DNA of 64,000 nucleotides from Sinomonas atrocyanea (GTDB lineage: Bacteria; Actinomycetota; Actinomycetes; Actinomycetales; Micrococcaceae): positions 1-64,000 of the forward strand of contig NZ_JAUSTE010000003.1 of NCBI RefSeq assembly GCF_030812675.1, written 5' to 3'. The notes beneath the pieces were generated by a model. That model saw only the letters and a program-made list of their open reading frames with translations, was not told where the DNA came from and made no database searches. Both the position numbers and the translations under genes were made by a program. Of this stretch, positions 4,117 to 24,737 are shown piece after piece; positions within the stretch are counted from its first letter, which is position 1; every line of letters begins with the position of its first letter.

Positions 4117-4134
4117 ACGAGTAGTCAGTACTCG
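4117..4134. promoter_or_regulatory. 18-bp dyad upstream of the surface-protein gene
   Basis: The sequence acgagtagtcagtactcg contains CGAGTA and TACTCG arms around a 6-nt centre. It matches 16 of 18 bases of the motif at 8622-8639, upstream of the sugar-transferase gene. It lies about 100 bp before the start of the surface protein, a plausible operator position. The binding protein is unknown. The rest of 4017-4222 shows no gene. Confidence 0.4.
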
Positions 4135-5046: not shown

Positions 5047-5056
5047 GCTTCGGCTC

Positions 5057-5749
5057 TCACGGCTTCTTCTTCCGCATCGCCGCGTCGGGTGCGTCCGACG
5101 GCGCGTTCTCGCGTGGTGGGAGCGGGATCTGCAGTGCGGGCGCCCCTACCCAGGTCTGCGCGTCGGGAATGTCGGCGACCACGGCGGCACCCATGCCCAC
5201 CACAGCCTCCGTCCCAATCCGCACGTTCTGCCGGATGCTGCAGTTCATGTTCAAGTGCGCCGCCCGCCCGACCACGACGGCCCCGCCGAGGGTCGCCCCG
5301 GCGGCGAAGGTCGCGAAGTCCTCGATGACGTCCCCATGGGCGAACGTCACCTGGGGCATGGCCACCACGTGGCTGCCGATCTGCACGGCCGCCGTCAGCA
5401 CGACGTTCGCGAGGAGAATGCTCCCCTCCCCCACGTAGCACCCCTCGGGGATGCCGACGCTTGAGTGGACGATGGTGGCGAAGCGATTCTGGGCTACGCC
5501 GACCCCCGCGAGTCTGCCGACGATGTCCGAGCGTTCGGTGCCTTTTACGGCGCAGACCACCACAAGTGCCGTGGGGTAGTCGCGCGCGTCCTCGACGCGC
5601 CCCAGGATGTGCGCGCCGTCGAGGACGGTGCCGATCAGGGACGGGTCGTCGTCCAAGATGCCGAGGACGTCGAACTCGTCCCCGCCGCGCACGGCCGCCA
5701 TGACCTCGCGGGCGAGACCGCTCGCTGCGACGAGGAGCAGTTCAGTCAT
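5057..5749 (-). CDS. NeuD/PglD-family sugar O/N-acetyltransferase
   Basis: A 230-residue protein. The N-terminal part (about 1-75) is a PglD-N-like alpha/beta domain (TELLLVAASGLAREV, then GILDDDP). The C-terminal part is a left-handed beta-helix of hexapeptide repeats ending VVADIPDAQTWVGAPAL. A histidine in FAHGDVI sits where PglD-type enzymes carry their catalytic base. The family transfers acetyl from acetyl-CoA to a sugar hydroxyl or to a 4-amino group of a UDP-sugar. Start chosen at the ATG 5749 because the family begins there. The open frame extends further upstream without homology. The aminotransferase that would make a 4-amino substrate is the adjacent pseudogene, so this enzyme's present substrate is unclear. 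Confidence 0.85.
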   Translation of the reverse strand: MTELLLVAASGLAREVMAAVRGGDEFDVLGILDDDPSLIGTVLDGAHILGRVEDARDYPTALVVVCAVKGTERSDIVGRLAGVGVAQNRFATIVHSSVGIPEGCYVGEGSILLANVVLTAAVQIGSHVVAMPQVTFAHGDVIEDFATFAAGATLGGAVVVGRAAHLNMNCSIRQNVRIGTEAVVGMGAAVVADIPDAQTWVGAPALQIPLPPRENAPSDAPDAAMRKKKP

Positions 5750-5840
5750 GTCCGGGCTACCGGAACGACGACAGACGGACTGCCAAGGAATGGCCGGCCG
5801 GAACTTGAGAGAATCATGGCAAGCCCTGTCCTCGACGCGC

Positions 5841-6836
5841 TCACGACGACGCCAAGACGCGTGCCGCAGCGATCTCCTCACGCAGCGGGCGCCACCAGGC
5901 AACGAGCCTGCGGAGACCCTCCTCAAGCTGCACCTGCGCACGAAACCCGAGATCACGCTCGGCTTCCGTGACGTCGGCGAGATGGCGGACCACCCCGTCG
6001 GCCCTCCGCTCAGAACCGAACTCGACAGAGATGTCAGAGCCCATCGCTGCGAGAAGCGCGACGGCGAGCGCGAGCAGGCTTGTCTCAGTGCCGCTACCCA
6101 CGTTGTACACGCCCTCGCAGATCGAGGATTCGGCAGCGTTGAGGTTCGCCCTCGCTACGTCCTCTGTGTAGACGAAGTCCATCGTCTGCTCCCCGTTACC
6201 AAAGACGATGGGGGGCCGGCCGTCGGCGATTCTCTCCATCCACCGGACGAGCACCTCCGTGTAGAGGCCCCACACATCCATGCGGGGACCGTAAACGTTG
6301 AAATAGCGGAGTGCCACGTAATCAAGCCCGTACATCGCCCGAAAGCTCCGTGCCATGCCCTCGTTGAAACTCTTGGCGGCCCCGTAGAACGTCGTGTTGT
6401 TGTACGGGTGATGCCGCTCCCCCGTCGGGTACGTGTCGGCCCGACCATACACTGAGGAACTCGATGCCAACACGACCTTGTCGACTCCGTGCTGGACTGC
6501 AGCCTCCAGCACATTGAAGGTTCCATCCACGAGGACCTCAAGAGCCGGCCGAGGGTCCTCCGCGCACTGGTCGTTACGGAGGGCCCCCTGATGGAAGACG
6601 AGGTCCTTTCCCATGGTCACATCGTGCACCAGATCGCGGTCCCTCAGATCGCCCTCAACGAGACGGACCCGGCCCGATGCAAGCGCATGGCCCAGATTCC
6701 CGACTCTGCCGCACGCAAGATTATCGAGGACATCGACAAGTTCGACCCCGGCGTCAAGGAGGTGATCGACCAGAGTCGACCCAATCGTGCCTGCGCCTCC
6801 CGTGACCAACACGCGAGCACCCGCCAGAACAGTCAT
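5841..6836 (-). CDS. NAD-dependent nucleotide-sugar epimerase/dehydratase
   Basis: A 331-residue extended short-chain dehydrogenase. The Rossmann motif TGGAGTIG lies at residues 12-19, a Ser-rich ASSSSVYG segment near 124-131, and the catalytic YxxxK as Y151-GAA-K155. RYFNVYGPR, further on, is typical of the C-terminal sugar-binding part. Length and motifs fit WbpP/GalE-like UDP-hexose 4-epimerases. A 4,6-dehydratase is less likely but cannot be excluded from motifs alone. It lies between the sugar-transferase and acetyltransferase genes on the same strand, with 91 bp to the acetyltransferase, so it probably supplies an activated sugar for the same surface glycan. Confidence 0.88.
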   Translation of the reverse strand: MTVLAGARVLVTGGAGTIGSTLVDHLLDAGVELVDVLDNLACGRVGNLGHALASGRVRLVEGDLRDRDLVHDVTMGKDLVFHQGALRNDQCAEDPRPALEVLVDGTFNVLEAAVQHGVDKVVLASSSSVYGRADTYPTGERHHPYNNTTFYGAAKSFNEGMARSFRAMYGLDYVALRYFNVYGPRMDVWGLYTEVLVRWMERIADGRPPIVFGNGEQTMDFVYTEDVARANLNAAESSICEGVYNVGSGTETSLLALAVALLAAMGSDISVEFGSERRADGVVRHLADVTEAERDLGFRAQVQLEEGLRRLVAWWRPLREEIAAARVLASS

Positions 6837-6992: not shown

Positions 6993-8525
6993 CTAACCGG
7001 TCGGTGCGACCACGGCGCGGAGCGTGCGCCAGAGGATCATGAGGTCGCCCGTGAGGGACCAGTTCTCGACGTAGTACAGGTCGAGCCGCACGGCGTCGTC
7101 CCATTCGAGGTCCGAGCGTCCGCTGATCTGCCACAGGCCGGTGATGCCCGGCTTGATGAGCATCCGGCGGTGGGTGTAGCGCTCGTAGCTGCCGACCTCC
7201 CGGGCCAGCGGCGGACGCGGTCCCACCAGGCTCATCTCGCCGCGCAGGACGTTGAAGAACTGCGGGAGCTCGTCGAGCGAGTAGCGGCGCATCCAGGCCC
7301 CGCACCGGGTGACCCGAGGATCCTGCTTCATCTTGAACAGCACCCCGGCGCCCTCGTTCGCCTCCGCGAGGGCTGCCAGGCGGGCCTCCGCGTCCGGGAC
7401 CATCGAGCGGAACTTGAACATGGTGAACGGCCTGCCGTCCTTGCCCACCCGCTCCTGCCGGAACAGCACCGGGCCCGGAGAATCGAGCTTGACGATCAGC
7501 GCCAGGGCCGCGAGCACCGGCGCCAGGACGATCACCGCCGCTGTGCCGAGCACCAGGTCCGCGCAGCGCTTGAGCACATGCTTGGTGCCCGAGTACCGCG
7601 GGAGGTCCACCTCCATGAGGGGCAGGCCCGGCACGGGACGGAAGTGGATGCGGGGCCCGGCGACGTTGGTCAGCGATGACGCGAGGACGAGCTCGGCGTC
7701 GTGCTCCTCGAGGTTCCAGCCGAGTTCCCGCACGTACTGGTTGCCGCCCGGCACGGGCCCGGCGACGATCACGGCCCCGGCCTTCTTCGTCGCGACCGTG
7801 CGCACCACGTCGTCCGTCGAGCTGAGCACGGGCAGGCGCTCGCCGTCGACCGTCAGGGACTGCCCGCGGCGGCCCCCGGGCAGGATCGCGCCGAGCACGT
7901 TGTACGGCGCGCCGTCGCCGGCGGCGATGCGCCGCACCACGTAGCGGACGTCCTCCGGCTCCCCCACCACCACGGCGGGCGTGAGGTACATGCCGCTCTG
8001 CCGCTGGCGGTGGAGCCAGCGGCGGCTCAGCGAACGGGTCGCCAGCAGCCCGAGCGTGCCGGTGCCGAGGACGAGGGCCCAGAGGCGCGCGGACAGCACC
8101 CCGTCAGTGAGGACCACGACGACCGCGACCAGGGCGAACAGCTGCATCGTGCCGCTGACCACGCGCCGGTACTCGTCCACGCCGATGCCCAGCACGGAGG
8201 TGTCGCGGCTGCCGGAGAGGCCGAGGGCGAACGGCCACACGAGGATGAACGCCCAGAGGGCGGCGGCCGGCCCGGGCGGAGGGTTCATGACCAGGACGCC
8301 CAGGCCCCCGGCCGCGACCGCAACGAGCGCGTCGGTGACGCGCAGGAACCTCGCGTAGCGGTGGGCCCACCCCTGGGCCCGCGCGGACCGGGCCATCCGG
8401 GCCTCCGCGGCGCTGAGGTCCCGGCGCAGCCGCAGGCCCAGTGCGGACGCTCCGATCCGCTCCGCCAGCCCGCGGCCGCGGGCGGGCTCGAATGCTGCTG
8501 ATCCCTGGTGAGCTCCAACGGACAT
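6993..8525 (-). CDS. Exopolysaccharide polyprenyl glycosylphosphotransferase (initiating sugar transferase)
   Basis: A 510-residue membrane protein. The N-terminal half has several hydrophobic helices (about residues 65-155), followed by a CoA-binding-like cytosolic domain. The C-terminal ~200 residues form the catalytic sugar-transferase domain, with KRCADLVLG, LDSPGPVLFRQERVG, FTMFKFRSM and a terminal LDLYYVENWSL...DLMILWRTL segment. The family (WbaP/WcaJ/CpsE) moves a sugar-1-phosphate from a UDP-sugar to undecaprenyl phosphate at the inner membrane face, starting a glycan repeat unit. The ATG at 8525 is preceded by AAGGAG with 6-nt spacing. It is the first gene of the locus to be read, and an 18-bp dyad lies about 100 bp upstream. 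Confidence 0.93.
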   Translation of the reverse strand: MSVGAHQGSAAFEPARGRGLAERIGASALGLRLRRDLSAAEARMARSARAQGWAHRYARFLRVTDALVAVAAGGLGVLVMNPPPGPAAALWAFILVWPFALGLSGSRDTSVLGIGVDEYRRVVSGTMQLFALVAVVVVLTDGVLSARLWALVLGTGTLGLLATRSLSRRWLHRQRQSGMYLTPAVVVGEPEDVRYVVRRIAAGDGAPYNVLGAILPGGRRGQSLTVDGERLPVLSSTDDVVRTVATKKAGAVIVAGPVPGGNQYVRELGWNLEEHDAELVLASSLTNVAGPRIHFRPVPGLPLMEVDLPRYSGTKHVLKRCADLVLGTAAVIVLAPVLAALALIVKLDSPGPVLFRQERVGKDGRPFTMFKFRSMVPDAEARLAALAEANEGAGVLFKMKQDPRVTRCGAWMRRYSLDELPQFFNVLRGEMSLVGPRPPLAREVGSYERYTHRRMLIKPGITGLWQISGRSDLEWDDAVRLDLYYVENWSLTGDLMILWRTLRAVVAPTG

Positions 8526-8621
8526 GACCCGCTCCTTGCCCCTGCCGCGGCCCGGCATCCCGGCACCGCCTCGAACGGAAAGCTTCTGCACACCAGTACA
8601 CGCGCCGGGCGGAGGAGGGTC

Positions 8622-8639
8622 ACGAGTAGTGAGTACGCG
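8622..8639. promoter_or_regulatory. 18-bp dyad upstream of the sugar-transferase gene
   Basis: The sequence acgagtagtgagtacgcg matches 16 of 18 bases of the motif at 4117-4134, and a weaker relative occurs at 16574-16591. It lies 97 bp before the start of the glycosylphosphotransferase. A shared operator for the glycan locus and the surface protein is inferred. The remaining bases of 8526-8797 show no coding gene. Confidence 0.4.
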
Positions 8640-8797
8640 AGCTACGCAGGCCTTCCCCGGGTGCACCCCTTGACCGGTACGCACCCGGATCGGAGGGCAC
8701 TACGCGGGTTCGCACTCCCCGCCCACGCGGTCCCGAACCCAGCTACGTGCCTCGTGCAACGAAGCGCACGACGGCGTGCGGCGGCAGAGGCTTTCGT

Positions 8798-8854
8798 CCC
8801 GCCACAGGCCTCCGGCCCGTCCCAGGGGACGGGCCGGAGGCCTGTGATGGCGGG
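8798..8854 (-). terminator. Long hairpin terminator after the first LuxR-family gene
   Basis: Arms 8804-8823 and 8826-8845 are perfectly complementary over 20 bp with a 2-nt gap. The stem resumes as cccgcc (8798-8803) against ggcggg (8849-8854) after a small bulge. It begins 16 bp past the stop of the regulator gene ending at 8870. No U-tract follows, as is common for GC-rich actinobacterial terminators. Confidence 0.7.
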
Positions 8855-8869
8855 CAGGTGCGGAGGCTG

Positions 8870-11599
8870 TCAGTCCTCGACTGCGGAGCGCAGGTCTTCC
8901 CTGCTGCGGATGCCGAGCTTGGCATAGCTGCGGTGCAGGTGGCCCTCCACGGTGCGCACGGACAGGTGCAGCCTGTCGGCGATCTGGCGGTCGCTGAGCC
9001 CGTCGACGGCGAGGTCCACGACGTCCTGTTCGCGCGGGCTCAGGCGCAGCGACGCGAGGACGGCCTCCTCGGCCTCCCCCGCCTCGCCGGCCCCGGGCAG
9101 GCCCTCGCACGCCCGTGCGGCGGCGCCGGCGCGGCGCGCCGCGACCCTGTCCCCGGAGGCGTCGAAGCAGGCGGCGGCGCGCGCGTAGGCGGCGCGGGCA
9201 CGCCGGTTCAGGCCGAGCGCCCGGAAGTGGTCCGCGGCCACGAGGTAGCCCTCGCCGCGCTCGTCCGCCTCGGCACGCGCCCAGGCGCCCCAGCCGTTGG
9301 CCCACGATCCTTCCGCGGCGGCGGCGACCTCAGCGGCCCGCCCCGCCTCGTCCCTGCCCCCGAGCTCGAGGAAGAGCACCCTCGCGATGAGTTCCCATCC
9401 GGGCCTGCCCGCTGCGCGGTTCCGCTCGGCGATCTCCGTGAGCGCCGCCAGCCCTCTGCCGGGCTCGAGGAGCTCGGCTGCTCCGGCACGGTGCATGGCC
9501 GCCAGCTCGCGCATGGCCGCGTTGCCCACCTCGGCGCAGGCCTCGGCCCGGGCGAGGTACTCGCGCGCTGCCTCCTCGTCCCCGGCGGCCGCGGCCGCCC
9601 ACGCGGCGAACGACGCCGCGACGGCGAAGAGGCGCAGGGGGTCCATGAGCTCGAGGTTCTCGACGACGTCGCCGAGCATCGGAACGGCCTCGGCGGCCCG
9701 GTCGCTGTGGAGGAGCGCGAAGGCCCTGGCGCAGTAGAGGCCTGGGCCGAAGGCGACGATCGGACGGGAACGGACGCCGGTGTAGCCCTCGGACACCTTC
9801 ACGACGGAGGCCCAGTCGCCGCCGAGGACGAGTCCCGAGAGGTAGCGGACGAGCCCGTACTCCTCGAGCGGGAAGTGCTCATCGTCGATCTCGATCTGGG
9901 CCAGGACGGAACCGGCCATGCGTGCGGAAGCGACATATTGGCCGTGCGCGAGCAGCACCGACCCCTCGAGCAGCGTCCACAGCGCCTGCTCGATCGGGGC
10001 GGACGGGGTCGCATGCACGGCGCGCTGCTCCTCTGCGAGCGCAGCCTCGACGGCAGCCATGTCCCCCCGCTCGTCGGCCGCCAGGGCCCGCAGGAGCCTG
10101 GCCCGGCGGAGGACGGCCTCGCGGGGGCCCGGGCCGAAGACGATGTCGCCCGCCGAGGTGGCCCGCTCCACCGCGTCCGCGGCCCGCTCGAGCCGCGCGG
10201 CGTCGTCGTCCATCGCCGCGGTCTCGCCGCGGGCGGCCCGCGCGGCGAAGCCGACCAGCGTCCCGGCGAGGACGTCGTCGACATCGTTCGGGTCCGCCGG
10301 GCCGCGGGAGAGGTCCGAGAGGGCGGCGGCCGGGTTGCCGAGGTTGAGGTGGGCGCGCGCCGGGATGGCCCGCAAGAGGGAGCGCTCGGTCTCGCCCTCG
10401 ACGAGGGCCGCGGCCCTGAGTCCCAGATCGTTGCGGAAGCGCGAGACCGCGTGGGCGGCTCCCCGCGCCAGTTCGTGGAACGGCGGGATGGCCCCGGTCT
10501 CGAGGGCGAGCTCGAACAGCCTGAGCTCGTTCGCGGGCTGGCGGAGGTCGTCCCCGCCCATCGCCGCGGCCCGGCGCAGCAGGTGCAGGCGGCGGGTGGC
10601 GGTCGTCATGGCCCGGATTGCGTCCGCGACCAGCGGGTAGCGGAGCCGGACGCTCGCATGGCCTGCGTCGGCCAGCCAGCCGGAGTCCGTGAGCCTGTCG
10701 AACACCGCCCGCTCGATCAGGGTGCGGGCGGCCGCGCGGGGCAGCGGTTCGGTGAGGGCGATGAGGGTGAGGGCCTCGCGCTCGGCCGGGGCGAGGGACT
10801 CCATCGCGCTGCGCACCGGGGCACCGAGCGCCTGGCCCCTGCTGGCGAACTCGCCGGTGAGGAGCCAGATCCCGCGCCGCTGGACGAGGGTCCCGGCCGC
10901 GATCGCCTCCTCGGTGAGCCGCACGAGGTGCAGCGGGTTGCCGGCGCTCAGGGCGTGCAGCACCGCGGCAGCCGTGATCGAGAGCCGTCCGCCGAGGCGC
11001 TTCCCGGCCGCGTCCCGGCTCTCCTCGAGGGACAGGGGGCCGAGGTCGAACCGCTCTGCGAGGCCGTCCCGCCACAGGTCCAGGAGGTCTCCGGGGAGCC
11101 CCGCCGAGCTGGACGCCGTCGCGAGCACCCGGACCCAGGACGATGCGACCGCCTCGGCGAGGACCCCGGCGGAGTCATCGTCGAGGTGGTGCGCGTCGTC
11201 GAGCACGATCACGATGGGCCGCTCTGCATGGGCGCCGTCCTCCGGCTCGGAGCCGTGCAGCTCAGCCCAGAGGGCACGCAGGACGCCGACACGGTCTTGG
11301 GCCTCCTCCGGGGTGAGGTGCCTCAGACACTGCAGGAGTGACCCGTACGGGATGTGGCGCAGGCTCTCTCCGGGCGTGATGGCGACGAACCGCACGGCGT
11401 CGCGGAGCTGCTCGGTCACCGTCTCGACGAGGTGGGTCTTGCCCGTTCCGGGCTCGCCGGAGACGATGACCGCCCCCGGGAGTCCGCGGCGCAGGGCCTC
11501 GACCGTGGCGGCGATGACCGTCTGCTGCGTCGGGGCCAGCCCGTCGGGGGCCAGGGTGTAGTCGCGGCGGTCTCCCCGGGATCCCGGTGAGGCATTCAT
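8870..11599 (-). CDS. LuxR-family ATPase regulator, LAL type, intact Walker B (module 1, second gene)
   Basis: A 909-residue STAND-like regulator. Walker A GEPGTGKT lies at residues 48-55 and Walker B IVIVLDDAHHLD near 130-140. A long alpha-helical TPR-like middle follows, then a C-terminal LuxR helix-turn-helix (LSPREQDVV, ADRLHLSVRTVEGHLHRSY). Such proteins bind ATP and an inducer or partner and then activate transcription; the target here is unknown. The ATG at 11599 has GGAG 6 nt upstream; an ATG at 11611 is the alternative. It follows the second regulator by 40 bp, so the two are probably co-transcribed. It resembles the regulator at 16618-19362 more than its own neighbour. Confidence 0.9.
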   Translation of the reverse strand: MNASPGSRGDRRDYTLAPDGLAPTQQTVIAATVEALRRGLPGAVIVSGEPGTGKTHLVETVTEQLRDAVRFVAITPGESLRHIPYGSLLQCLRHLTPEEAQDRVGVLRALWAELHGSEPEDGAHAERPIVIVLDDAHHLDDDSAGVLAEAVASSWVRVLATASSSAGLPGDLLDLWRDGLAERFDLGPLSLEESRDAAGKRLGGRLSITAAAVLHALSAGNPLHLVRLTEEAIAAGTLVQRRGIWLLTGEFASRGQALGAPVRSAMESLAPAEREALTLIALTEPLPRAAARTLIERAVFDRLTDSGWLADAGHASVRLRYPLVADAIRAMTTATRRLHLLRRAAAMGGDDLRQPANELRLFELALETGAIPPFHELARGAAHAVSRFRNDLGLRAAALVEGETERSLLRAIPARAHLNLGNPAAALSDLSRGPADPNDVDDVLAGTLVGFAARAARGETAAMDDDAARLERAADAVERATSAGDIVFGPGPREAVLRRARLLRALAADERGDMAAVEAALAEEQRAVHATPSAPIEQALWTLLEGSVLLAHGQYVASARMAGSVLAQIEIDDEHFPLEEYGLVRYLSGLVLGGDWASVVKVSEGYTGVRSRPIVAFGPGLYCARAFALLHSDRAAEAVPMLGDVVENLELMDPLRLFAVAASFAAWAAAAAGDEEAAREYLARAEACAEVGNAAMRELAAMHRAGAAELLEPGRGLAALTEIAERNRAAGRPGWELIARVLFLELGGRDEAGRAAEVAAAAEGSWANGWGAWARAEADERGEGYLVAADHFRALGLNRRARAAYARAAACFDASGDRVAARRAGAAARACEGLPGAGEAGEAEEAVLASLRLSPREQDVVDLAVDGLSDRQIADRLHLSVRTVEGHLHRSYAKLGIRSREDLRSAVED

Positions 11600-11639
11600 G
11601 ATCGTCTCCATCGTCCCCCGTTCCGGGCGCGCTTCCCTC

Positions 11640-14357
11640 TCAGACAAGGCCAGCCAGTCCGGCACGCGAGCTCACCCCCAGCTTCATGAACACCTGGTAC
11701 AGATGGCCCTCCACCGTGCGGACCGAGACGCCGAGCTCGTCGGCGATGTCCCGGTTGGAGGAGCCTGATGCCGCGAGGACCGCGATCTGGCGCTCACGCT
11801 CGGTGAGCATCGGCGCGGGCGTCTGGGGCACGAGCGGGAGGACCGGCAGCACGCGCGCGAGCCGGTCGAGCCGGGTCTGGGCGAGGCCGGCTGCCACCGA
11901 ATTCCCCTCGCCCCGGGCGAAGTCCAGGGCGAGGGCGGCGCACCGGGCCTCGACGGCGTCGAGGCGGAGGTCGTACGCCTCCTCGGCGGCCGCAAGGAGG
12001 GCCGCCACGTCCCTGCGCCGGGTCGCGGAGGCGACGGCGGCGTAGAGGTGGGCGAGGGGACCCTGACGGTGGTGGGCGAGCCGCTCGATCCACAGGAACT
12101 CCCGCTCGCCGCCGACCACGCTCGCCTCGAAGACGGCGGTCCCCGCCGCGCTCATGCGCCCGGCAGCCTCGTCCCGTGCTGCTCGGGCGAGCATCGCCGC
12201 GGCCCCGTCGCCCTGGCCGAGCCACGTGCGCGCGGCGCCCTCGCACTGGTCCGCGCACGTCGCCAGCTGCCAGAACATCGGCCCGCGGGCCTTCGCCGCG
12301 AGGGCGAGGAACCGCTCCGCCTCGCCCGAGTCGCCGATCTGGGCGTAGGCCAAGGCCGCGGCGGCGTAGGCGGCGCGCAGGGCATTGAGCGCCGGGAATT
12401 CCTCGAGCTGGGCCGCCGCACTGAGGACAGGGCCGAGCGCTGCCGAGCCGTGCCCGGCCGCCAGATGCGCGAGCGCGAGGTACAGCTCGGCGATCCCGCC
12501 GCGGAGGGTGAGCCGGCGGCCGCCCTTGTCCATGTACTCCTCGAACAGGTCGACGCACCGCTTCCAGTCGCCCGTCGCGGTCCAGACGGAGAACGCCGTC
12601 GCCAGGAAGTCGCCCTCGTCCGTGCGCCGGGGGGCCGAGAACTCGATCGAGGCCACGAGTCCGGCGGCGTCCATCTCGCGGCCGCACGCGGCCCAGGCGT
12701 GCGCGAGGATGAGGGAGCAGCCGCGCCGGAAGCCCTCGCTCCCGTCCGTGTCCCGCGAGGCGCTCTCGAGCCGGGCGAGGATGGGCATGAAGTCCCCGGT
12801 GAACGCGCGCACCCTGAACTCAGCGAGGTCGAGCACCTCGGCGGCCGCCCGGACCGGCCCGGACTCCTCGGCGCGCACCGCGAGCCGGTCCCACGCGGCG
12901 CGCAGCGGCTCGAGCGCGTTCCCGGCCTCGGGGAGCCAGCACAGCAGCTCCGAGGTGGCCGCCGCGTGCCGCGCGGCGTCCACGGCCTCGAGCGAGCCGA
13001 GGACTGCCGGCGGCACCGCCTCGAGGACGGAGAGGGCCTCGTCCCGGCGCTCGAGCATCGCGAGCGCCGCCGCGCGGCGGAAGGCGGCCTCGAAGGCGGG
13101 AGGCCCGTCGAGCGCGGGCAGCCTGTCCAGCAGGGCGAGCGCCCGGTCCGGCTCGAAGAGCTCGACCGCCGCCGCAGCGGACTGCAGCACGAGCCCGGGT
13201 TCCGGCGCGGTGCCGACCTCGAGCGTCCATTCGACGTAGGAGATGAGCTCGTCGCGGTCCAGCCCGCCGTCCTCGGACGCGCCGCCGAGGGACATGAGCG
13301 AGGCGAGCTCGCGGTGGCGGTCCGGCCCGAGCCGGGCCCGGACGAGCTCGGCCATCCGCGGCTCGCGCAGGTAGGCACAGCGGTGCTGGCTCGCGTCGAC
13401 GGCGATGAGGCCGCGGTCCTCCATGTCGACGAGGACCTCAGAACCGAAAAGGCCCGCGAGGGCCGTGATCGGAACCCTGCGGGCCACTGCGAGCTGCTCG
13501 ATGACTTCCCTGACGTCCTGGGACTCCCGCGCCCAGCGCGCGCGGATGAGATCGTCCGCGCCCCGGACCGGCTCGGGCCGGACGGAACGGTCCAGGGTCC
13601 ACACCCCGCCCCGCTGGTGAAGGTTTCCACGGGCGCGCTCGCGGTGCACGATCCCGTACACCTCGGCGGGGTTGCCGCCGCACGCGTAGTGCACCTCGCC
13701 GATGGTCGACGACGCGACCCTGCCGCCCACGATCGCCGCGACGAGCCGGCGCGTCTCGGGCACCCCGATCCTGCCGAGCGCGACCTCTCTGATCCGTCCA
13801 CCGCGGACGAGGCGGGCGAGGTCCGGCGCGAGGTCGGCGACGGCGGGGGCGATGACCATCAGCCGCGCCGCGCGGCTGAGGACGAGGTGCATCAGCACGG
13901 CCACGCAGTCCTCCGCCAGCGGCCCCACGAGGTCGAGGGTGAGCACCACGTCCCGCCCGCCCGCGTCGTCGGCCAGCATGCGCTCGAGGGCCAGGAGCAG
14001 GCCCGTGCCCGAGGACGGGGCGGACTTGGGGAGCCTGGCGAGGAGCGGACCGAGGCACGTGGACGGGGCAGACGGCCCGGAGGGTCCGGAGGAGGCCCGC
14101 AGGCGCATGGCGTGCACGCCGGGCCCGAGGGAGGAGAGCACGGCGCCCGCGAGGAAGGACTTCCCCACGCCCGGGGAACCCGTGATGACCACACCAAGGC
14201 TGGAGTCCTGGGTGAGCGCGGCGACAGCGGCGTCGAGCTCGGACTGGCGCACGAGCGTGGCCCAGTGCCTCCGGTCCGCCTGCCGCTCAGTCGGCGGCGC
14301 AGGCGGCGCGCCGGCTGTGCCGGGCGCGTCTACCAGGCTCGGTATGTTGTTGCCCAT
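11640..14357 (-). CDS. LuxR-family ATPase regulator, LAL-like, degenerate Walker B (module 1, first gene)
   Basis: A 905-residue protein. Walker A GSPGVGKS lies at residues 60-67. Where Walker B is expected it reads GGRDVVLTLDLVGPLAED, with one Asp but not the usual hhhhDD/DE pair. A helical TPR-like middle and a C-terminal LuxR HTH follow (LTERERQIAVLAASGSS, then LGVSVRTVEGHLYQVF). The ATG at 14357 is preceded by GGAGG with 5-nt spacing. Its HTH and P-loop region match the regulator at 19385-22102 best. ATP binding looks possible, but hydrolysis may be impaired. Together with the gene at 8870-11599 it forms a two-gene module that recurs beyond sufSU. Confidence 0.9.
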   Translation of the reverse strand: MGNNIPSLVDAPGTAGAPPAPPTERQADRRHWATLVRQSELDAAVAALTQDSSLGVVITGSPGVGKSFLAGAVLSSLGPGVHAMRLRASSGPSGPSAPSTCLGPLLARLPKSAPSSGTGLLLALERMLADDAGGRDVVLTLDLVGPLAEDCVAVLMHLVLSRAARLMVIAPAVADLAPDLARLVRGGRIREVALGRIGVPETRRLVAAIVGGRVASSTIGEVHYACGGNPAEVYGIVHRERARGNLHQRGGVWTLDRSVRPEPVRGADDLIRARWARESQDVREVIEQLAVARRVPITALAGLFGSEVLVDMEDRGLIAVDASQHRCAYLREPRMAELVRARLGPDRHRELASLMSLGGASEDGGLDRDELISYVEWTLEVGTAPEPGLVLQSAAAAVELFEPDRALALLDRLPALDGPPAFEAAFRRAAALAMLERRDEALSVLEAVPPAVLGSLEAVDAARHAAATSELLCWLPEAGNALEPLRAAWDRLAVRAEESGPVRAAAEVLDLAEFRVRAFTGDFMPILARLESASRDTDGSEGFRRGCSLILAHAWAACGREMDAAGLVASIEFSAPRRTDEGDFLATAFSVWTATGDWKRCVDLFEEYMDKGGRRLTLRGGIAELYLALAHLAAGHGSAALGPVLSAAAQLEEFPALNALRAAYAAAALAYAQIGDSGEAERFLALAAKARGPMFWQLATCADQCEGAARTWLGQGDGAAAMLARAARDEAAGRMSAAGTAVFEASVVGGEREFLWIERLAHHRQGPLAHLYAAVASATRRRDVAALLAAAEEAYDLRLDAVEARCAALALDFARGEGNSVAAGLAQTRLDRLARVLPVLPLVPQTPAPMLTERERQIAVLAASGSSNRDIADELGVSVRTVEGHLYQVFMKLGVSSRAGLAGLV

Positions 14358-14481
14358 CTGTGCCTCCACCTCGGACGTTGGCCCCCAGCCGCCCGAACAG
14401 GCACAGCCTACGGCCGCCCTCGGACATTGCAAAGGGACCAACGCCCCGGATGCGGCAGGGCGCCGGTATGTTACTGGGGAA

Positions 14482-14500
14482 CACCCCCGGTGCTGGGGTG
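14482..14500 (-). terminator. Stem-loop between sufU and the next regulator
   Basis: CACCCC (14482-14487) pairs with GGGGTG (14495-14500) around a 7-nt loop, just after the sufU stop. TTACTGGGG occurs twice here (14471 and 14509), so the segment could instead be part of the promoter of the regulator starting at 14357. Low-confidence call. Confidence 0.3.
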
Positions 14501-14508
14501 CACGGGCG

Positions 14509-19362
<4,854 letters not shown>

Positions 19363-19384
19363 GCGCGGCCCCCGCCGGGCACGG

Positions 19385-22102
19385 TCACAGCAGGTTCGCC
19401 AGCTCGCCCCGGGTCGAGACGGAGAGCTTGGCGAAGATCTGGTAGAGGTGTCCTTCCACGGTCCGCACGGACAGTCCGAGCAGCTCCGCGATGCGCCGGT
19501 TGGAGGTGCCGGAGGCCGCGAGGGCGGCGACCTCCTCTTCACGGTCGGTGAGGACCGGCGCGTGCCGGGGCTCGACGGGGAGCACGGCGACGCGCCCGGC
19601 GAGGGCATCGAGTCGGGGCCGCAGGCGCCGCACGGCGCGCGCGTCGTCCATCTCGCGCGCCCTGTCGAGGGCCACGGCCGCGCACCGCGATTCGACCGCA
19701 TCGAGTTCGAGGCCCGCCGCGAGGTCGGCCGCCGCGGTGAGGTCCTCGATCCGCCCGGTCCGGGTCCCACGGGCCAGCAGGAGGGCGAGCTCGGCGAGCT
19801 GCCCCTGCCGGTGCGCGCAGACCTCCTCGAGCAGGCGCAGGTCGTCGGCACGCGCCCCGACGGTGGCCCCGACGAGCTTGATCCCGGCCTGGTTCCACCG
19901 GCCCATCGCCATGTCTTCGCGCGCCGCCGCCACGAGCCGGCCCGCTGCCTCGGGATCGCCGGACCAGCGGCGCGCCATCTCCGAGCAGAACTCGACGATC
20001 GAGCGGCTCTGGTAGCTGCCCTGCGGCCGCCAGCGGTCCAGCTTCTCGAGCCATTTCCGGGACGCCGCGGCATCGCCCTGCTGGGCGTAGGCGAAGGCCG
20101 TCGCGGCGTAGGCGGGCCCGAGCTGGGCCGCCGGGCCGCGCTCGAGGAGGGCGAGCGCGGAGAGGAGTGGGTCCAGGGCGTCGTGGCCGCGGCCCGCGTA
20201 GACATACGCGAGTCCCGCAGCAAGCTCGAGGGAGGCCCCCGTCGTCCTGAGCCGTTCGAGGGACCACTGGGCCGGGCTCCTGAGGAGCGCGAGCGCCTGC
20301 CTCCAGTGCCCGTTGAACAGCAGGACGGTGAAGGCACGGGCCGCGAAGGCCTGCCGCAGCGGCGCCGACCCCTGCCTCTGTCCCATCTGCGCTGCGACCT
20401 CGTGCAGCAGGGCGAGCCCGTCCTGCTCCCTGCCGAGCATGGTCCTGGCCTCCATGAGGATGCAGGCGGCCCGGAGGCGGATCTCGCCGTCGGCCGGGTT
20501 CGGGTCCGCCACCATGGCCTCGAGGCGGTCCTCGATGCGGGCGTAGTCGCCGCCGAAGGCGCGGTGCTCGAAGTCTGCGAGGTCGAGCACCGCGGCAGCC
20601 CGGCGGACCTCGGCGTCCGCGCGTGGACCTCTCCCCGAGTCGAGCAGGAGCCGGGCGCGGGCGTCGGAGAGCAGGGCCTCGACCTGCCCCGCGCGCTCCG
20701 GGACCCAGCGCATGGCCTCGGCCTGGGTCGCGGTGAGCTCGGCCACGGCCGAGGGGGCCAGCAGGGCCAGCTCGTCCTCGGTGACCTGGTCCAGGCAGGC
20801 GAGGGCCTGCTGGGGCAGCTGCAGCATGAGCAGCGCCCGGGCGCGCAGGTGCTGGACGGTGGGCCAGGTCGCGGCCTCCCGGTCGATCCCTTCGAGGCAG
20901 TCGAGCGCGAACCGCGGGTCGAACAGCCGCAGGGATGCGACCGCGGCCGCGACGGCATGCCGCGCGGGCAGGAGCGTGTGGCACTCGCGGGTCCAGGCCG
21001 CCAGGCCGAGGAGCTCGACCGTGCTGATGACCTCGACGGGGGGCTCGCCGTCAGACATCAGCAGTGTGCGCAGTTCGCGCCGGCGGGGCACGGAGAGCCA
21101 TCCGCGGACCACCTCGGCCACGAGCGGGTCGGCGAGGGCCACGGAGTGCCGCCCCCCGTCGTCGACCGTGATGAGGCCGTCGTCCTCCATCTGTGCCACG
21201 TCGTCGCGGCGGAACGCGGAGAGGAGCCGCGGGAGCGGGATGCGGCGTGCGCACGCGAGCGCCTCGACGATGGCCTGGATGCGCGCCGGCTGCCGCTCGA
21301 TCCGGGCCCGCACGAGGTCGTCGATCTGGCGGATGCCGCTCAGCTCGGCGTCGGGGGCGAGGGTCCACACTCCGTCCGTGGCGTCGAGCGCCCCGCGCTG
21401 GAGGAGTTCGGCGGCCGCGAGCAGCGCGACCTGGGGGTTGCCCCGGGACATGGCGTGCAGCTGGAACCCGACGGTCTGCGGGACGATGCCGCCGAGCAGG
21501 GACCGCAGGCCCTGCAGGGTCTCGTCGGGCGAGAGCGCGGACAGGGGGATCTCACGCAGCCGCCCCTCGGAGAGCATCCAGTGGAAGTCGGCGGGCAGCT
21601 CGCTCGCGCGGTCGGCGACGAGGACCACCTTCGCCGTGCCCGTGACCATGATGTTCACGAGGGTGGCGGTGCTGAGCTCGTCGAGGTTCTTGGACGTCTC
21701 GAGCGACATCACGGCCATGCGGCCTCCCGCGTCGGCGGAGAGAAGCTGGAGGATGCCCCGCATGATCGAGCCCGGATCGGCCTGCGCGTCCTCGGGAAGC
21801 CGCGCGAGCAGCACGGCGAGCGCCCCGTACGGGGTCCGCGTCCCCACGATCGTGGAACGGAGGCGGACGGTGTGGGCGGTGTCCTCGAGGCCTGTGAGCA
21901 GGGCCGAGGCCACCGCCGACTTGCCGAAGCTCGTGTCCCCGGTGAGCACCACCCCGTAGGAGCCCGGTTCCGCGAGGGCGGCGGTCGCCTCCGCGATCTC
22001 CGTGGCCCTGACGGCGCGTGCCCAGGCCAGCCTGTCGCCCGCGCGGGCCTTCGCGTCCCGGAGGAGCCGGCCGGTCTCCTCCGCCTCGGTCTGCGTCCGC
22101 AT
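19385..22102 (-). CDS. LuxR-family ATPase regulator, LAL-like, degenerate Walker B (module 2, first gene)
   Basis: A 905-residue protein from the ATG at 22102. A GTG at 22129 would add nine residues, and neither start has a clear ribosome site. Walker A GDTSFGKS lies at residues 55-62. The Walker B position reads GGRMAVMSLETSKNLDEL and lacks the acidic pair. A long helical TPR-like region precedes the C-terminal HTH (LTDREEEVAALAASGTS, then LGLSVRTVEGHLYQIF). It is closest in this window to the regulator at 11640-14357. It begins module 2, probably from its own promoter in the 109-bp gap after pth. Confidence 0.9.
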   Translation of the reverse strand: MRTQTEAEETGRLLRDAKARAGDRLAWARAVRATEIAEATAALAEPGSYGVVLTGDTSFGKSAVASALLTGLEDTAHTVRLRSTIVGTRTPYGALAVLLARLPEDAQADPGSIMRGILQLLSADAGGRMAVMSLETSKNLDELSTATLVNIMVTGTAKVVLVADRASELPADFHWMLSEGRLREIPLSALSPDETLQGLRSLLGGIVPQTVGFQLHAMSRGNPQVALLAAAELLQRGALDATDGVWTLAPDAELSGIRQIDDLVRARIERQPARIQAIVEALACARRIPLPRLLSAFRRDDVAQMEDDGLITVDDGGRHSVALADPLVAEVVRGWLSVPRRRELRTLLMSDGEPPVEVISTVELLGLAAWTRECHTLLPARHAVAAAVASLRLFDPRFALDCLEGIDREAATWPTVQHLRARALLMLQLPQQALACLDQVTEDELALLAPSAVAELTATQAEAMRWVPERAGQVEALLSDARARLLLDSGRGPRADAEVRRAAAVLDLADFEHRAFGGDYARIEDRLEAMVADPNPADGEIRLRAACILMEARTMLGREQDGLALLHEVAAQMGQRQGSAPLRQAFAARAFTVLLFNGHWRQALALLRSPAQWSLERLRTTGASLELAAGLAYVYAGRGHDALDPLLSALALLERGPAAQLGPAYAATAFAYAQQGDAAASRKWLEKLDRWRPQGSYQSRSIVEFCSEMARRWSGDPEAAGRLVAAAREDMAMGRWNQAGIKLVGATVGARADDLRLLEEVCAHRQGQLAELALLLARGTRTGRIEDLTAAADLAAGLELDAVESRCAAVALDRAREMDDARAVRRLRPRLDALAGRVAVLPVEPRHAPVLTDREEEVAALAASGTSNRRIAELLGLSVRTVEGHLYQIFAKLSVSTRGELANLL

Positions 22103-22157
22103 CTGACCTGCGCCCCCATGCGTCGGCACGTCCCCCGCCAGGACGTGGCTGGGGAAA

Positions 22158-22163
22158 CCTTAC
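22158..22163 (-). promoter_or_regulatory. Putative -10 box (TAAGGT) before regulator module 2
   Basis: TAAGGT on the minus strand lies 28 nt before the GTG at 22129, in the gap between pth and the first regulator of module 2. No -35 element was recognised, so this is a tentative call. Confidence 0.35.
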
Positions 22164-22175
22164 CGCTCCCCCAGC

Positions 22176-22192
22176 GGCCCCAGCAGGGCCGA
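22176..22192 (-). terminator. Short stem-loop after pth
   Basis: CGGCCC and GGGCCG arms around a 5-nt loop lie 20 bp past the pth stop on the minus strand. The stem is short and no U-tract follows. Confidence 0.35.
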
Positions 22193-22211
22193 ATGTCACG
22201 GCCGGGCGGGG

Positions 22212-22799
22212 CTACGCCTTGGCCGGGTGGAACTTCTGCTGGGCGGCGGCCAGCCCGTCCCGCGCGAGCATCTCGACGGCGTCGGCGGCCTCGTCCAGGA
22301 GGAACGGCAGCTCCTTCTTCTCGGCGGAGCCGAAGTCGCGCAGCACGAAGTCGGCGGCGTCCATGCGGCCCGGCGGCCGGCCCACACCCACCCGCACCCG
22401 GAGGTAGTCCTTGGTGCCGAGGGCCTTGGAGATGTCGCGCAGGCCGTTGTGGCCGCCCTCGCCGCCGCCGAGCTTGAGGCGGACGGTGTTGAAGGGGATG
22501 TCCAGCTCGTCGTGGACGGCGACGACGTGGCCGGGCTCGATCCCGTAGTACTTGGCGAGGGAGGAGGTCGGGCCGCCGGAGACGTTCATGTAGGTCAGCG
22601 GCTTGGCGAGGACCGCACGGGGGCCGCCCACCCACAGCCGTCCCTCGAGGACGGCGGCGCGCGCACCCTTGTGCGCGGCGAACTTCCCGCCCATGCGCGC
22701 GGCGAGGGCATCGAGGACCATCTGCCCCACGTTGTGCCGGTTCCCGCTGTATTCGGGCCCGGGGTTGCCGAGGCCCACGACGAGCCAGGTGTCGGTCAT
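22212..22799 (-). CDS. pth: Peptidyl-tRNA hydrolase
   Basis: A 195-residue Pth. Seen: [11 protein letters not shown] at the N-terminus, the catalytic histidine in [19 protein letters not shown], the catalytic aspartate in VHDELDIPF, and the [10 protein letters not shown] loop. It frees tRNA from peptidyl-tRNA dropped by ribosomes and is essential in bacteria. The ATG at 22799 has AAGGAG 7 nt upstream. It lies downstream of rplY, a pairing widely conserved in Actinobacteria. A strong hairpin between them suggests partial uncoupling. Confidence 0.96.
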
Positions 22800-22866
22800 G
22801 GATGCGCTCCTTGGGTCTGGGCCGGGGGTCGGCGGGCAGCGGCGGCCGGGAGGCCGCCACGTCGAA

Positions 22867-22894
22867 GCGGCCCGCCCCGGGTGGGACGGGCCGC
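22867..22894 (-). terminator. Hairpin terminator after rplY
   Basis: gcggcccg (22867-22874) pairs with cgggccgc (22887-22894), with further partial pairing inside. It begins 25 bp past the rplY stop. There is no clear U-tract. Confidence 0.6.
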
Positions 22895-22919
22895 CTGACG
22901 CAGTGCAGCAGTCGTGGGA

Positions 22920-23531
22920 CTACTCGGCGGGGGCTTCCTCGGCCTCCGGCGCCTCGGCGGGGGCCTCGGCCTCGCCGGCCTCCTCCTCCGCAGCGACCTC
23001 GACGGCCTCGGAGACGTTGACCACGAGGGTCTCGGGGTCGGTCAGCAGCGCCACGCCGCTGGGCAGCGCGATGTCGGCGGCGTGGACGTGCTGGCCGGCC
23101 TCGCGGCCCTCGACGCTGACCTCGAGGGCGGTGGGCAGGTGGGTCGCCTCGGCCTCGACCGAGACGGTCACGGCCTCCTGGTTGGCGACGAACCCGGCCG
23201 CGACCTCGCCGGTGACGTGAACGGGCACGTCGACGGCGACCTTCTCGCCGCGGCGGACCGTGAGGAGGTCCATGTGCTCGATCGTCTGGCGGACGGCGTT
23301 GCGCTGGATGTCCTTGACGATCGCGAGGTGCTCCTCGCCCTCGATGTCGAGCGTGAGGAGGGCGTTCGGGACGCGGACGGCGATCATGGTCTCGTGGCCC
23401 GGGAGCGCGACGTGGATCGGCTCGGCGCCGTGGCCGTAGATGACGGCGGGGATCTTGTGGGCGGCGCGGGTGCGGCGGGCGTAGCCCTTGCCGAACTCGG
23501 TGCGCTTCTCAGCTGCGAGCTTCTCGCTCAT
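22920..23531 (-). CDS. rplY: 50S ribosomal protein L25/general stress protein Ctc
   Basis: A 203-residue long-form L25 (TL5/Ctc class). The N-terminal 5S-rRNA-binding domain has KRTEFGKGYARR and IPAVIYGHG. A C-terminal beta domain follows, then an Ala/Glu-rich acidic tail of about 25 residues typical of actinobacterial Ctc. It binds 5S rRNA in the central protuberance. The ATG at 23531 has AAGGAG 6 nt upstream, which decides the start over the longer open frame. Confidence 0.95.
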   Translation of the reverse strand: MSEKLAAEKRTEFGKGYARRTRAAHKIPAVIYGHGAEPIHVALPGHETMIAVRVPNALLTLDIEGEEHLAIVKDIQRNAVRQTIEHMDLLTVRRGEKVAVDVPVHVTGEVAAGFVANQEAVTVSVEAEATHLPTALEVSVEGREAGQHVHAADIALPSGVALLTDPETLVVNVSEAVEVAAEEEAGEAEAPAEAPEAEEAPAE

Positions 23532-23693
23532 GCGGGTCTCCTTCGATGATTCGTTTGGCGCGAGGTCTGCCGACCTCCGCCCGGCGCCGGGGCGCCGCGA
23601 AGGAGTTGCCAGACCCAGTCGATCACGGAGCGGGCGCTCCCTCGCCAAGGTTCGCCGACCATCCTACAGGGGCGGAGGGACGCCGCCAAAACG

Positions 23694-23744
23694 GCGCACG
23701 ACGGCGCCGTCCCCGCCTCGGGTGGGGACGCCGCCGTCGTGCGC
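23694..23744 (-). terminator. Strong intrinsic terminator after prs
   Basis: Arms 23694-23714 and 23724-23744 pair over 21 positions with a single mismatch and a 9-nt loop. On the minus strand the stem is followed at once by CGTTTT, a short U-run. It starts 12 bp past the prs stop and separates glmU-prs from rplY-pth. Confidence 0.85.
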
Positions 23745-23756
23745 GGGGTGCTGCTG

Positions 23757-24737
23757 CTAGCTGCGGCCGTCGAAGAGCGAGGTGACCGAGCCGTCGTCGA
23801 AGACCTCGTGGATCGCGCGGGCGATGAGCGGGGCGATCGAGAGGACGGTGAGCTGCTCGAAGCGCTTCTCGGCGGGGATCGGCAGCGTGTTCGTCACCAC
23901 GACCTCGCGCGCACCGGACTCGGCCAGGCGCTGGGCGGCCGGGTCGGAGAACACGGCGTGGGTCGCGGCGATGATGACGGAGCGGGCGCCGGCGTTCTTC
24001 AGGACCGTCACAGCGCCGGAGATCGTGCCGCCGGTGTCGATCATGTCGTCGATGAGCACGCAGTCGCGGCCCTCGATCTGGCCGACCACGGTCTTGGAGA
24101 CCGCGGAGTTGGGCACGTTCACGTCGCGGGACTTGTGCACGAACGCGAGCGGGGCGCCGCCGAGGCGCTCGGCCCACTGCTCGGCGACGCGCACGCGGCC
24201 GGTGTCCGGGGAGACGACCGTGACCTTGTTCAGGTCCACCCGGGTGCGGACGTAGTCGGCGAGGAGCGGGATCGCCATGAGGTGGTCCACCGGGCCGTCG
24301 AAGAAGCCCTGGATCTGCGCGGTGTGCAGGTCGACGCTCATGAGCCGGTCCGCGCCGGCGGTCTTGTAGAGGTCCGCCATGAGGCGGGCCGAGATGGGCT
24401 CGCGGCCGCGGTGCTTCTTGTCCTGCCGGGCGTAGGGGTAGAACGGGGAGACGACCGTGATCCGCTTGGCGCTCGCGCGCTTGAGCGAGTCGATCATGAT
24501 CAGCTGCTCCATGATCCAGTTGTTGATCGGCGCGGGGTGCGCCTGGATCACGAACGCGTCGGCGCCGCGGACGCTCTCCTCGAAGCGGACGTAGGTCTCT
24601 CCGTTGGCGAAGTCGTACGCCGAGGTCGGCAGCAGCTCGGTGCCGAGCTCCTTGGCGATCTCCTGCGCGAGCTCCGGGTGGGCGCGCCCGGAGGCGAGCA
24701 CCAGACGCTTCTCGCCATTGGCCGTGATCTCGGTCAT
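23757..24737 (-). CDS. prs: Ribose-phosphate pyrophosphokinase (PRPP synthetase)
   Basis: A 326-residue class I PRPP synthetase. Seen: SGRAHPELAQ at the start, FYPYARQDKKHRGREPIS (the flexible ATP loop), DLHTAQIQGFF, and the PRPP-binding loop VLIDDMIDTGGTISG. It makes PRPP from ribose-5-phosphate and ATP for nucleotide, histidine and tryptophan synthesis and, in Actinobacteria, for decaprenyl-phosphoribose. The ATG at 24737 abuts the glmU stop directly (TAG then ATG), so the two genes form an operon. Confidence 0.96.
   Translation of the reverse strand: MTEITANGEKRLVLASGRAHPELAQEIAKELGTELLPTSAYDFANGETYVRFEESVRGADAFVIQAHPAPINNWIMEQLIMIDSLKRASAKRITVVSPFYPYARQDKKHRGREPISARLMADLYKTAGADRLMSVDLHTAQIQGFFDGPVDHLMAIPLLADYVRTRVDLNKVTVVSPDTGRVRVAEQWAERLGGAPLAFVHKSRDVNVPNSAVSKTVVGQIEGRDCVLIDDMIDTGGTISGAVTVLKNAGARSVIIAATHAVFSDPAAQRLAESGAREVVVTNTLPIPAEKRFEQLTVLSIAPLIARAIHEVFDDGSVTSLFDGRS

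Follow-up and report, generated by a model that had tools for sequence, protein, structure and literature searches.

What do two pairs of large regulators on either side of a pair of iron–sulfur genes do together, and what do they control? This question was raised by the first 64,000 nt of contig NZ_JAUSTE010000003.1 of Sinomonas atrocyanea (the window), in which four genes for large ATP-binding regulators of the LuxR family (LAL) form module A (A1 and A2) and module B (B1 and B2), with sufS and sufU between them. An earlier note made from this sequence had described four minus-strand regulators of 905–914 aa flanking sufS–sufU, and the sizes, positions and arrangement were all confirmed. In our reading, the modules are two copies of an ancient LAL pair that probably acts as a hetero-oligomeric activator of promoters bearing an inverted repeat. 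The pairing, the gene order, a Walker-B tendency, congruent trees, the enrichment and spacing of the operator, and the covariation and co-occurrence of an RNA were supported directly. The genes were as follows (STAND, signal transduction ATPases with numerous domains).

19385..22102, minus strand: gene A1, 905 aa, type-1 LAL/STAND-LuxR regulator with P-loop GDTSFGKS and Walker B SLETS, lacking the second acid
16618..19362, minus strand: gene A2, 914 aa, type-2 LAL/STAND-LuxR regulator with P-loop GEMGMGKS and Walker B VIDDAH
11640..14357, minus strand: gene B1, 905 aa, type-1 regulator with P-loop GSPGVGKS and Walker B TLDLV
8870..11599, minus strand: gene B2, 909 aa, type-2 regulator with P-loop GEPGTGKT and Walker B VLDDAH
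14958..16304, minus strand: cysteine desulfurase gene sufS, with a GTG at 16304 as its likely start by comparison with relatives
14509..14961, minus strand: sufU scaffold (NifU_N)

The first members of the two modules resembled each other, as did the second members, in line with the earlier description. The identity was 37.0% between A1 and B1 (890 columns) and 35.6% between A2 and B2 (859 columns), against 23.8–26.8% in the four crosses. In an approximately unbiased (AU) test of the quartet, the grouping ((A1,B1),(A2,B2)) was ahead by 101.6 log-likelihood units, with p < 1e-42 for both alternatives, and the same grouping was obtained when the N-terminal part, the middle and the helix-turn-helix (HTH) region were taken separately. 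Matches to A1 (E ≤ 1e-10) were present in 115 of 197 genomes of the Micrococcaceae; in the window's own genome (4.12 Mb), A1, A2, B1 and B2 were the only full-length matches, and three more spanned just 57–119 residues at the C-terminal end. A tree was built from 129 proteins longer than 600 aa from 41 loci, namely the window and 40 fetched stretches (two frames that did not exceed 600 aa were excluded). Its midpoint split, the deepest division by this placing, separated 68 type-1 from 61 type-2 proteins with support values of 0.968 and 1.0; the expected clustering of first members with first and second with second was thus borne out. A1 was 90% identical to a Sinomonas atrocyanea homologue, and one Sinomonas homologue of A1 (L036, 3438–6047) was split into two frames by a break near the C-terminal end, a frameshift or a sequencing error.

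Each of the 116 loci scanned had a type-1 frame with a type-2 frame next after it, a few of them with partial frames included. These loci comprised L031–L070 (40), L071–L145 (75) and the window, partly from the same genomes; L071–L145 were fetched with a type-1 query and are biased toward finding type 1. Eleven other loci (L195–L205) had eight genomes in common with L031–L040. When genes of at least 600 aa with room alongside were counted, leaving out shorter frames and those on the minority strand, type 1 was followed by type 2 in 159 of 172 cases and type 2 was preceded by type 1 in 159 of 169 (within 400 nt). For 156 of the 159 pairs, no more than 100 nt separated the end of the first gene from the aligned start of the second. 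The same ordered pair was also found alone in relatives, as had been foreseen, including Sinomonas genome G037 (L033), which lacked module B. The pair is not strictly obligate: partners were mostly adjacent and co-diverged, as the idea of an obligate two-component regulator had implied, and 13 of the 172 type-1 and 10 of the 169 type-2 genes had no partner next door. Eight of the ten lone type-2 genes were a third LAL gene in their locus (L111–L113, L117, L119, L121, L126 and L129).

The co-divergence was seen in the correlation of type-1 with type-2 distances between modules (Spearman 0.849; 60 modules, 41 loci). Shuffling of partners within loci gave a mean of 0.613, and a value as high as the observed one did not arise in 1000 shuffles. 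Pairing the true partners gave the best assignment in 18 of 18 multi-module loci, ten of which are Sinomonas and hence not independent; in L047 the lead was zero to three decimals, and in L063, L065 and L070 it was slight.

The two types differed at the ATPase site. The P-loop was present in all four proteins of the window, first members included, and the Walker B cores were SLETS (A1), TLDLV (B1), VIDDA (A2) and VLDDA (B2). A degenerate Walker B in the first member and an intact one in the second, noted earlier for the window, proved to be a family-wide tendency: the second Walker-B acid was present in 57 of 61 type-2 proteins and absent from 56 of 68 type-1 proteins. The first acid was kept in 67 of 68 type-1 proteins, and the second place was taken by N, T, F, L or S in 55. 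Pfam AAA_16 was above the gathering score in the N-terminal part of A2 and B2 and below it in A1 and B1, and the C-terminal LuxR HTH (GerE) was above it in all four. An AlphaFold2 model of A1 (predicted local distance difference test score, pLDDT, 90.6; predicted template modelling score, pTM, 0.85) contained an alpha/beta ATPase, a long helical array and a terminal HTH. We class all four proteins among the LAL regulators, type 1 lacking one of the usual residues. The HTH endings LYQ(V/I)F and (Y/H)RxY, proposed as marks of first and second members, were real in the window and held within the nearer clade only, since some distant first members ended in YRLY or NRTY. Orthology to MalT was rejected (23–29 bits against an NCBIfam equivalog cut-off of 537, over the HTH only), as was orthology to AbsR2 (60–101 bits against 850), which was still the best named NCBIfam relative and which we take to be SCO6993. 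An anti-phage STAND or defence reading was also rejected: PADLOC gave HTH matches and one weak 38-residue match at the B2 P-loop.

With its P-loop kept and the second Walker-B acid mostly gone, type 1 probably binds ATP and hydrolyses little or none of it. Mutations in other LAL proteins gave differing results: in MilR, changing either Walker-B Asp abolished function, and in PikD the second Asp was reported dispensable, according to the parts of PMC5015266 available to us. Loss of hydrolysis in type 1 is therefore no more than likely.

The two types could also be independent neighbouring homomers, linked by ancestry and co-transcription and each working alone. Lone genes of both types persist, and GdmRI and GdmRII of geldanamycin biosynthesis are both required and are nevertheless described as independent, in the part of PMC6784220 consulted. 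This explanation is rather unlikely in view of the ordered linkage in 159 of 172 cases, the co-divergence of partners, the Walker-B acid mostly missing from one partner and kept by the other, and the same kind of palindrome behind both modules (below).

The earlier note also held that the module had been duplicated or inserted twice as a unit. The two-gene module was right, and the split into types predates its duplication. A recent duplication or double insertion in Sinomonas would fit the module counts in that genus, two in 14 of 15 genomes and one in G037. It is nonetheless very improbable: modules A and B are just ~36% identical, other genera have second modules of their own, and the A1 line was placed away from B1, in a group with first members of genus g9, to which Arthrobacter-named loci belong (support 1.0), a grouping to be read with the placing of A2 and B2, which the tree did not settle. 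In another family of the same order, the same ordered pair was found in five loci (L146–L150) chosen for side-by-side matches. No pth was found in these stretches; a SugTr-like glycosyltransferase gene was directly next in two and further on in two. In a joint tree, from which three proteins were left out (L065_3, L065_4 and L066_2), the first members of this second family joined type 1 (support 0.999) and the second members were placed with weak support. Ten further loci from other families contained a single LAL gene in eight cases and two in the others, whose products scored similarly as either type. The possibility that homologues are normally single fits the other families mostly, and Micrococcaceae genes are mostly paired. 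As the type split is older than the module duplication and common to the second family, the pair is, judged from these trees, an ancient co-inherited two-gene module that multiplied.

Behind the second gene of the pair, an inverted repeat, CGAGTAC-nnn-CTACTCGTG, was found. The copies in the window and the genes next to them are given here.

16575..16591, minus strand: operator-like inverted repeat CAAGTAGTCACTACCCG in the A2–sufS gap, 2 mismatches, 26.2 bits (matrix built from sites outside Sinomonas)
8623..8639, minus strand: operator-like inverted repeat CGCGTACTCACTACTCG in the B2–SugTr gap, 1 mismatch, 21.7 bits
8592..8600, minus strand: -10-like box TGTACTGGT, at the offset typical for the operator-like repeat
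6993..8525, minus strand: SugTr, exopolysaccharide polyprenyl glycosylphosphotransferase, above the TIGR03025 cut-off, start at 8525 proposed
4118..4134, minus strand: operator-like inverted repeat CGAGTACTGACTACTCG, perfect copy, 32.0 bits
3..4016, minus strand: large beta-propeller/PQQ-repeat protein behind the perfect repeat, signal-peptide-like start by eye, running off the contig

A de novo count of 6-mers in 22 gaps between a pair and SugTr ranked CGAGTA/TACTCG first, with 41 sites in 22 of 22 regions against 3.2 expected from shuffles. The half-site [CT]GAGTA was enriched in gaps between the second gene of one pair and the first of another (71 against 4.7 expected in L071–L145; 29 against 3.3 in the 41 loci) and in gaps between the second gene and sufS (62 against 13.5; 16 against 3.7). 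It was not enriched between pth and the first gene (14 against 10.7; 4 against 4.6) or between prs and rplY (3 against 6.4; 0 against 2.4); region classes with fewer than three regions were not shown in these counts. Inverted half-sites with a spacer of exactly 5 occurred at 1.38 per kb, against at most 0.24 at other inverted spacings, 0 in control gaps and 0.01 in LAL coding regions; direct repeats, too, were in excess at certain spacings, with 0.58 per kb for spacer 1. A repeat with up to two mismatches was present in 100 of 135 regions behind type 2 and in none of 309 controls. The 79 unique aligned sites gave the consensus AAnTCGAGTACnnnCTACT(C/G)GTG, with a box TTnACTT(A/G) 39–46 nt from the start of the site. 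This fixed offset puts the centre of the repeat near -44, which is the place of LuxR-type class II activators.

A score matrix was built from 54 sites outside Sinomonas and used with a threshold of 13 bits. Regions behind type 2 reached this score in 112 of 135 cases, a count that includes the training sites; the controls did so in 1 of 320 and the reversed regions in none of 135. In the held-out genus Sinomonas, the matrix marked 10 of 10 SugTr regions and, for sufS regions, 9 of 11 in the 41 loci and 4 of 6 in L071–L145 (partly the same genomes). Three sites exceeded 17 bits in the 64-kb window, at 4115–4138 (32.0), 16572–16595 (26.2) and 8620–8643 (21.7), and the next score was 9.1, opposite-strand readings of the three aside. 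The CGAGTACTGACTACTCG site was the only perfect copy of the repeat in the 4.12-Mb genome, and a -10-like box stood at the usual offset at the SugTr and beta-propeller sites. SugTr was marked in 11 of 11 Sinomonas polysaccharide loci. At the same threshold, the matrix marked none of nine paralogous SugTr loci and none of six other-family loci that hold a pair, intact or broken; among 10 other LAL loci it marked one, at 13.7 bits. In Sinomonas G338 (L204), four operator sites were spread over ~15 kb of the polysaccharide locus, which suggests several controlled promoters. Autoregulation from upstream was considered and rejected, as the operator was not enriched between pth and the first gene of the pair; the regions upstream of A1 and B1 gave alignments too divergent to interpret. 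A separate inverted repeat, CACGTCC-N7-GGACGTG, was seen at 22127–22147, ~25–45 nt upstream of A1, and in nearer Sinomonas only.

The repeat might belong to another regulator, with the LAL pairs merely hosted at the same place. Operators also occurred in stretches in which no LAL gene was found, and the pairs of the second family have none. This ownership is quite unlikely, as the repeat stood behind the pair whatever the next gene (SugTr, sufS or another pair), the paralogous SugTr loci had none, and a centre near -44 suits a LuxR-type activator. Moreover, exact copies occurred in 22 LAL-bearing genomes and one LAL-free genome among the 197 (Fisher 5.8e-5, kinship not corrected).

The genes next to the pair followed the recurring order glmU-prs-rplY-pth-[pair]. 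The gene after type 2 was SugTr in 21 regions and sufS in 16 regions of the 41 loci, and sufS in 48 and SugTr in 3 of the 75 loci L071–L145, many of them Arthrobacter or Pseudarthrobacter. Since these counts differed between the locus sets, neither sufS nor SugTr can count as the sole partner. An arrangement with two pairs around sufSU was found in Sinomonas only; pth-sufSU without a LAL gene in the stretch was found in L176 and pth-sufSU-pair in L065. From these arrangements, pth and sufSU seem to have been adjacent from early on, with pairs arriving at their sides later, and the enclosure of Fe–S supply, to which the earlier note had given weight, looks like synteny. What stands of that idea is a possible functional link to sufSU, because sufS often lies behind the pair and an operator is there in many cases. 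SugTr of the window scored 406.7 bits against the TIGR03025 cut-off of 295.55 (NCBIfam). In ten Sinomonas loci with module B, SugTr followed after a short gap. B2 and a SugTr orthologue (at least 65% identity) were each present in 14 of 15 Sinomonas genomes; both were missing from G037, where the joint loss may have been one deletion event.

A hairpin of ~60 nt with the loop GAGACC and the bulge CCCCC(C)AG was often found behind the operator. The corresponding elements of the window were these.

16425..16503, minus strand: covarying terminator-like hairpin RNA, from a covariance model and folding, without an Rfam match
~16390, minus strand: TGGGACAAT box before sufS, -10-like by eye
8797..8852, strand not assigned: GC-rich hairpin directly 3' of B2, with chance sub-gathering miRNA-model matches, perhaps the terminator of module B

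Searched with a strict pattern, 70 of 136 loci yielded one hairpin each, always in the same sense as the LAL genes if such genes had been called; of the remaining 66 loci, 41 gave a copy with a covariance model. In 33 of 57 distinct sequences, 591 of 591 cells of 18 base pairs were standard. Seven pairs were changed on both sides (7 of 500 shuffles reached seven), in 60 cells (0 of 500 shuffles). Because the copies were collected with a pattern that prescribed the loop, the bulge and some of the outer stem, only covariation in the inner stem was free of this choice, and four of the seven pairs lay there. The window copy had a folding energy of -46.2 kcal/mol (z -5.35). It was the only copy found in its own genome among the best 150 of 10215 candidates scored, where weak copies could hide; the SugTr operator of the window thus has no hairpin behind it. 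No Rfam 15 match covered the hairpin at E ≤ 5 in the window (8400–23000) or at E ≤ 1 in L080, L107 and L182.

The hairpin model matched in 101 of the 197 family genomes. With LAL matches at E 1e-10, both were present in 99 genomes, LAL only in 16, the RNA only in 2 (weak) and neither in 80; at E 1e-20 the numbers were 80, 4, 21 and 92 (kinship not corrected in either count). In a sample of 149 genomes of the order, 8 of the 11 listed members of the family had the hairpin, and 2 of the 138 others gave marginal matches. An operator of at least 13 bits lay within 500 nt upstream in the same sense for 68 of the 70 copies found by pattern, for 39 of another 49 and for 12 of the 22 from loci fetched separately, against 1, 5 and 0 within 500 nt downstream. 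Upstream matches in the opposite sense (16, 8 and 1) arose because the repeat is near-palindromic. This count left out 5 of 54 rows (the window's own and opposite-strand readings) and 2 of 24 rows. Among the 12 separate loci with an operator, LAL genes were found in L178, L181 and L183 and in none of seven others; L184 and L185 were not gene-called. In L167, L168, L172 and L182, cassettes of operator and hairpin stood in stretches in which no LAL gene was found, near genes for ANTAR-domain, BTAD-domain and enolase-like proteins. Some copies precede genes with BTAD or ANTAR domains, and others precede sufS or regulators.

The hairpin may be a mere strong terminator common to the lineage, setting the next gene apart from the operator transcript or from the LAL operon, and the probability of this is only a little short of even. 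It has a GC-rich stem and, in the model consensus, a tail that tends to be U-rich. Weaker operator-free copies were seen between pth and the first LAL gene (L060, L062, L064, L068 and L069), as if the same terminator family ended the pth operon, and three copies lay between convergent genes (L173, L177 and L180; two with weak operator scores of 13.5 and 13.8). The loop GAGACC and the bulge CCCCC-AG, invariant in 33 aligned copies (the search pattern required both), and near-identical copies that track the LAL pair and operator across genera count against such a role. The -10-like box behind the hairpin before sufS favours an independent short transcript. With the U-rich tail, the operator-free copies and the convergent-gene copies, a terminator, the 3' end of a small RNA (sRNA) and a leader attenuator are all candidates. 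ANTAR targets are dual hairpins. Two known RNAs were rejected: the available parts of PMC9130861 and PMC8164766 gave no link of Ms1 RNA to the locus and none of ANTAR-target RNA, and the element here is a single hairpin with a loop of ~10 nt.

Taken as a hetero-oligomeric activator, the pair would work as follows. The genes A1 and A2, like B1 and B2, are close enough to form one operon. Type 1 and type 2 would act together, with the ATP state set by the type-2 partner, and the complex would bind CGAGTAC-nnn-CTACTCGTG downstream of the module, centred near -44. To judge from position and co-occurrence, the bound complex would activate the promoter there. In Sinomonas, the repeat behind module A lies ahead of the hairpin RNA and sufS, that behind module B would drive an exopolysaccharide locus beginning with the glycosylphosphotransferase, and the third lies ahead of the beta-propeller gene. 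The heteromer, its DNA binding, the activation, the role of the RNA and the signal are what we infer from comparative sequence data. A bolder form is put forward tentatively, as more doubtful than not: a split STAND switch of hydrolysing and ATP-holding subunits on palindrome half-sites one helical turn apart, one main output of which would be hairpin sRNAs or leader attenuators controlling exopolysaccharide and other Micrococcaceae loci.

Several observations weigh against the activator reading. At the protein level, there are 13 lone type-1 and 10 lone type-2 genes, 12 of 68 type-1 proteins keep the second Walker-B acid, and the corresponding Asp was reported dispensable in PikD. Among the candidate targets, sufS and not SugTr was the commoner next gene in L071–L145, and in G338 B2 and SugTr were 4.7 kb apart, with the operator standing at SugTr. 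Two of the 11 Sinomonas sufS regions were below the matrix threshold, and the sufS-side site of the window had no clear -10 box at the usual offset. The half-site was in mild excess in rplY coding (50 against 30) and SugTr coding (36 against 19.6) and, from one region of 11, between sufU and the first LAL gene (4 against 0.9). In the window's own genome, the repeat with up to two mismatches was no commoner than its reversed control (252 against 254), and the exact pattern occurred at 28 places in the 197 genomes against about 72 for the control. The pairs of the second family had neither operator nor hairpin RNA, 10 of the 22 hairpins in separately fetched loci had no operator, and the stricter LAL threshold left the 21 genomes with RNA and no LAL match.

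The pair was compared with known systems. The lux box, a ~20-bp inverted repeat just upstream of -10, is like the operator found here in length and place, as in LuxR-type class II activation, whereas the LAL pair has an ATPase sensor and no acyl-homoserine-lactone domain. EAR/LoaP-type leaders are structured RNAs ahead of exopolysaccharide genes; the element here differs in being a single hairpin without an Rfam match that also stands before sufS and regulators. MalT, PikD and MilR have the same build of ~900 aa, with an N-terminal P-loop ATPase, a long helical middle and a C-terminal LuxR HTH. In the parts of PMC5015266 and PMC3282765 consulted, LAL regulators elsewhere are mostly single genes, many in secondary-metabolism clusters, whereas the pair here has two fixed, ordered types, one mostly without the second Walker-B acid. 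GdmRI and GdmRII are likewise two non-equivalent LALs (26% identical), both needed for one target; they are not adjacent in the printed gene list and, in the portion of the paper available, are described as independent, with recognition sequences still to be found (PMC6784220). SCO6993 binds palindromes, its own promoter included, and differs in its length (606 or 646 aa), its negative regulation, a consensus site that its authors could not predict, and its neighbour SCO6992, a beta-glucuronidase and not a LAL (PMC9628970, as far as the text was available).

In the open-licence literature, nothing on the LAL pair, the operator or the hairpin RNA was found among the matches listed. The combination of a fixed family-wide ordered pair with a split Walker B, an operator and an RNA looks new. 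LAL regulators have been called poorly studied (PMC3282765, in the part consulted). Paired LALs, a sharp operator, a fixed promoter geometry, candidate targets and a co-occurring RNA make hetero-oligomeric STAND activation testable in soil bacteria that do no harm, with the prediction that exopolysaccharide synthesis in Sinomonas and relatives is under the control of the LAL pair. The locus also adds an RNA element that had no Rfam match in the copies scanned. If true, a split STAND switch with a hairpin RNA output would control exopolysaccharide and other loci across the Micrococcaceae, through an undescribed RNA family.

Two further features of the window were recorded. The 927-aa frame at 23623–26406 looks spurious: it seems to overprint prs and glmU, with the same strand read in a different frame. 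The frame at 4608–5441 matched DegT/DnrJ aminotransferases at profile positions 56–131 of 360 only; this aminotransferase gene looks truncated and adjoins a hexapeptide transferase gene (5057–5956).

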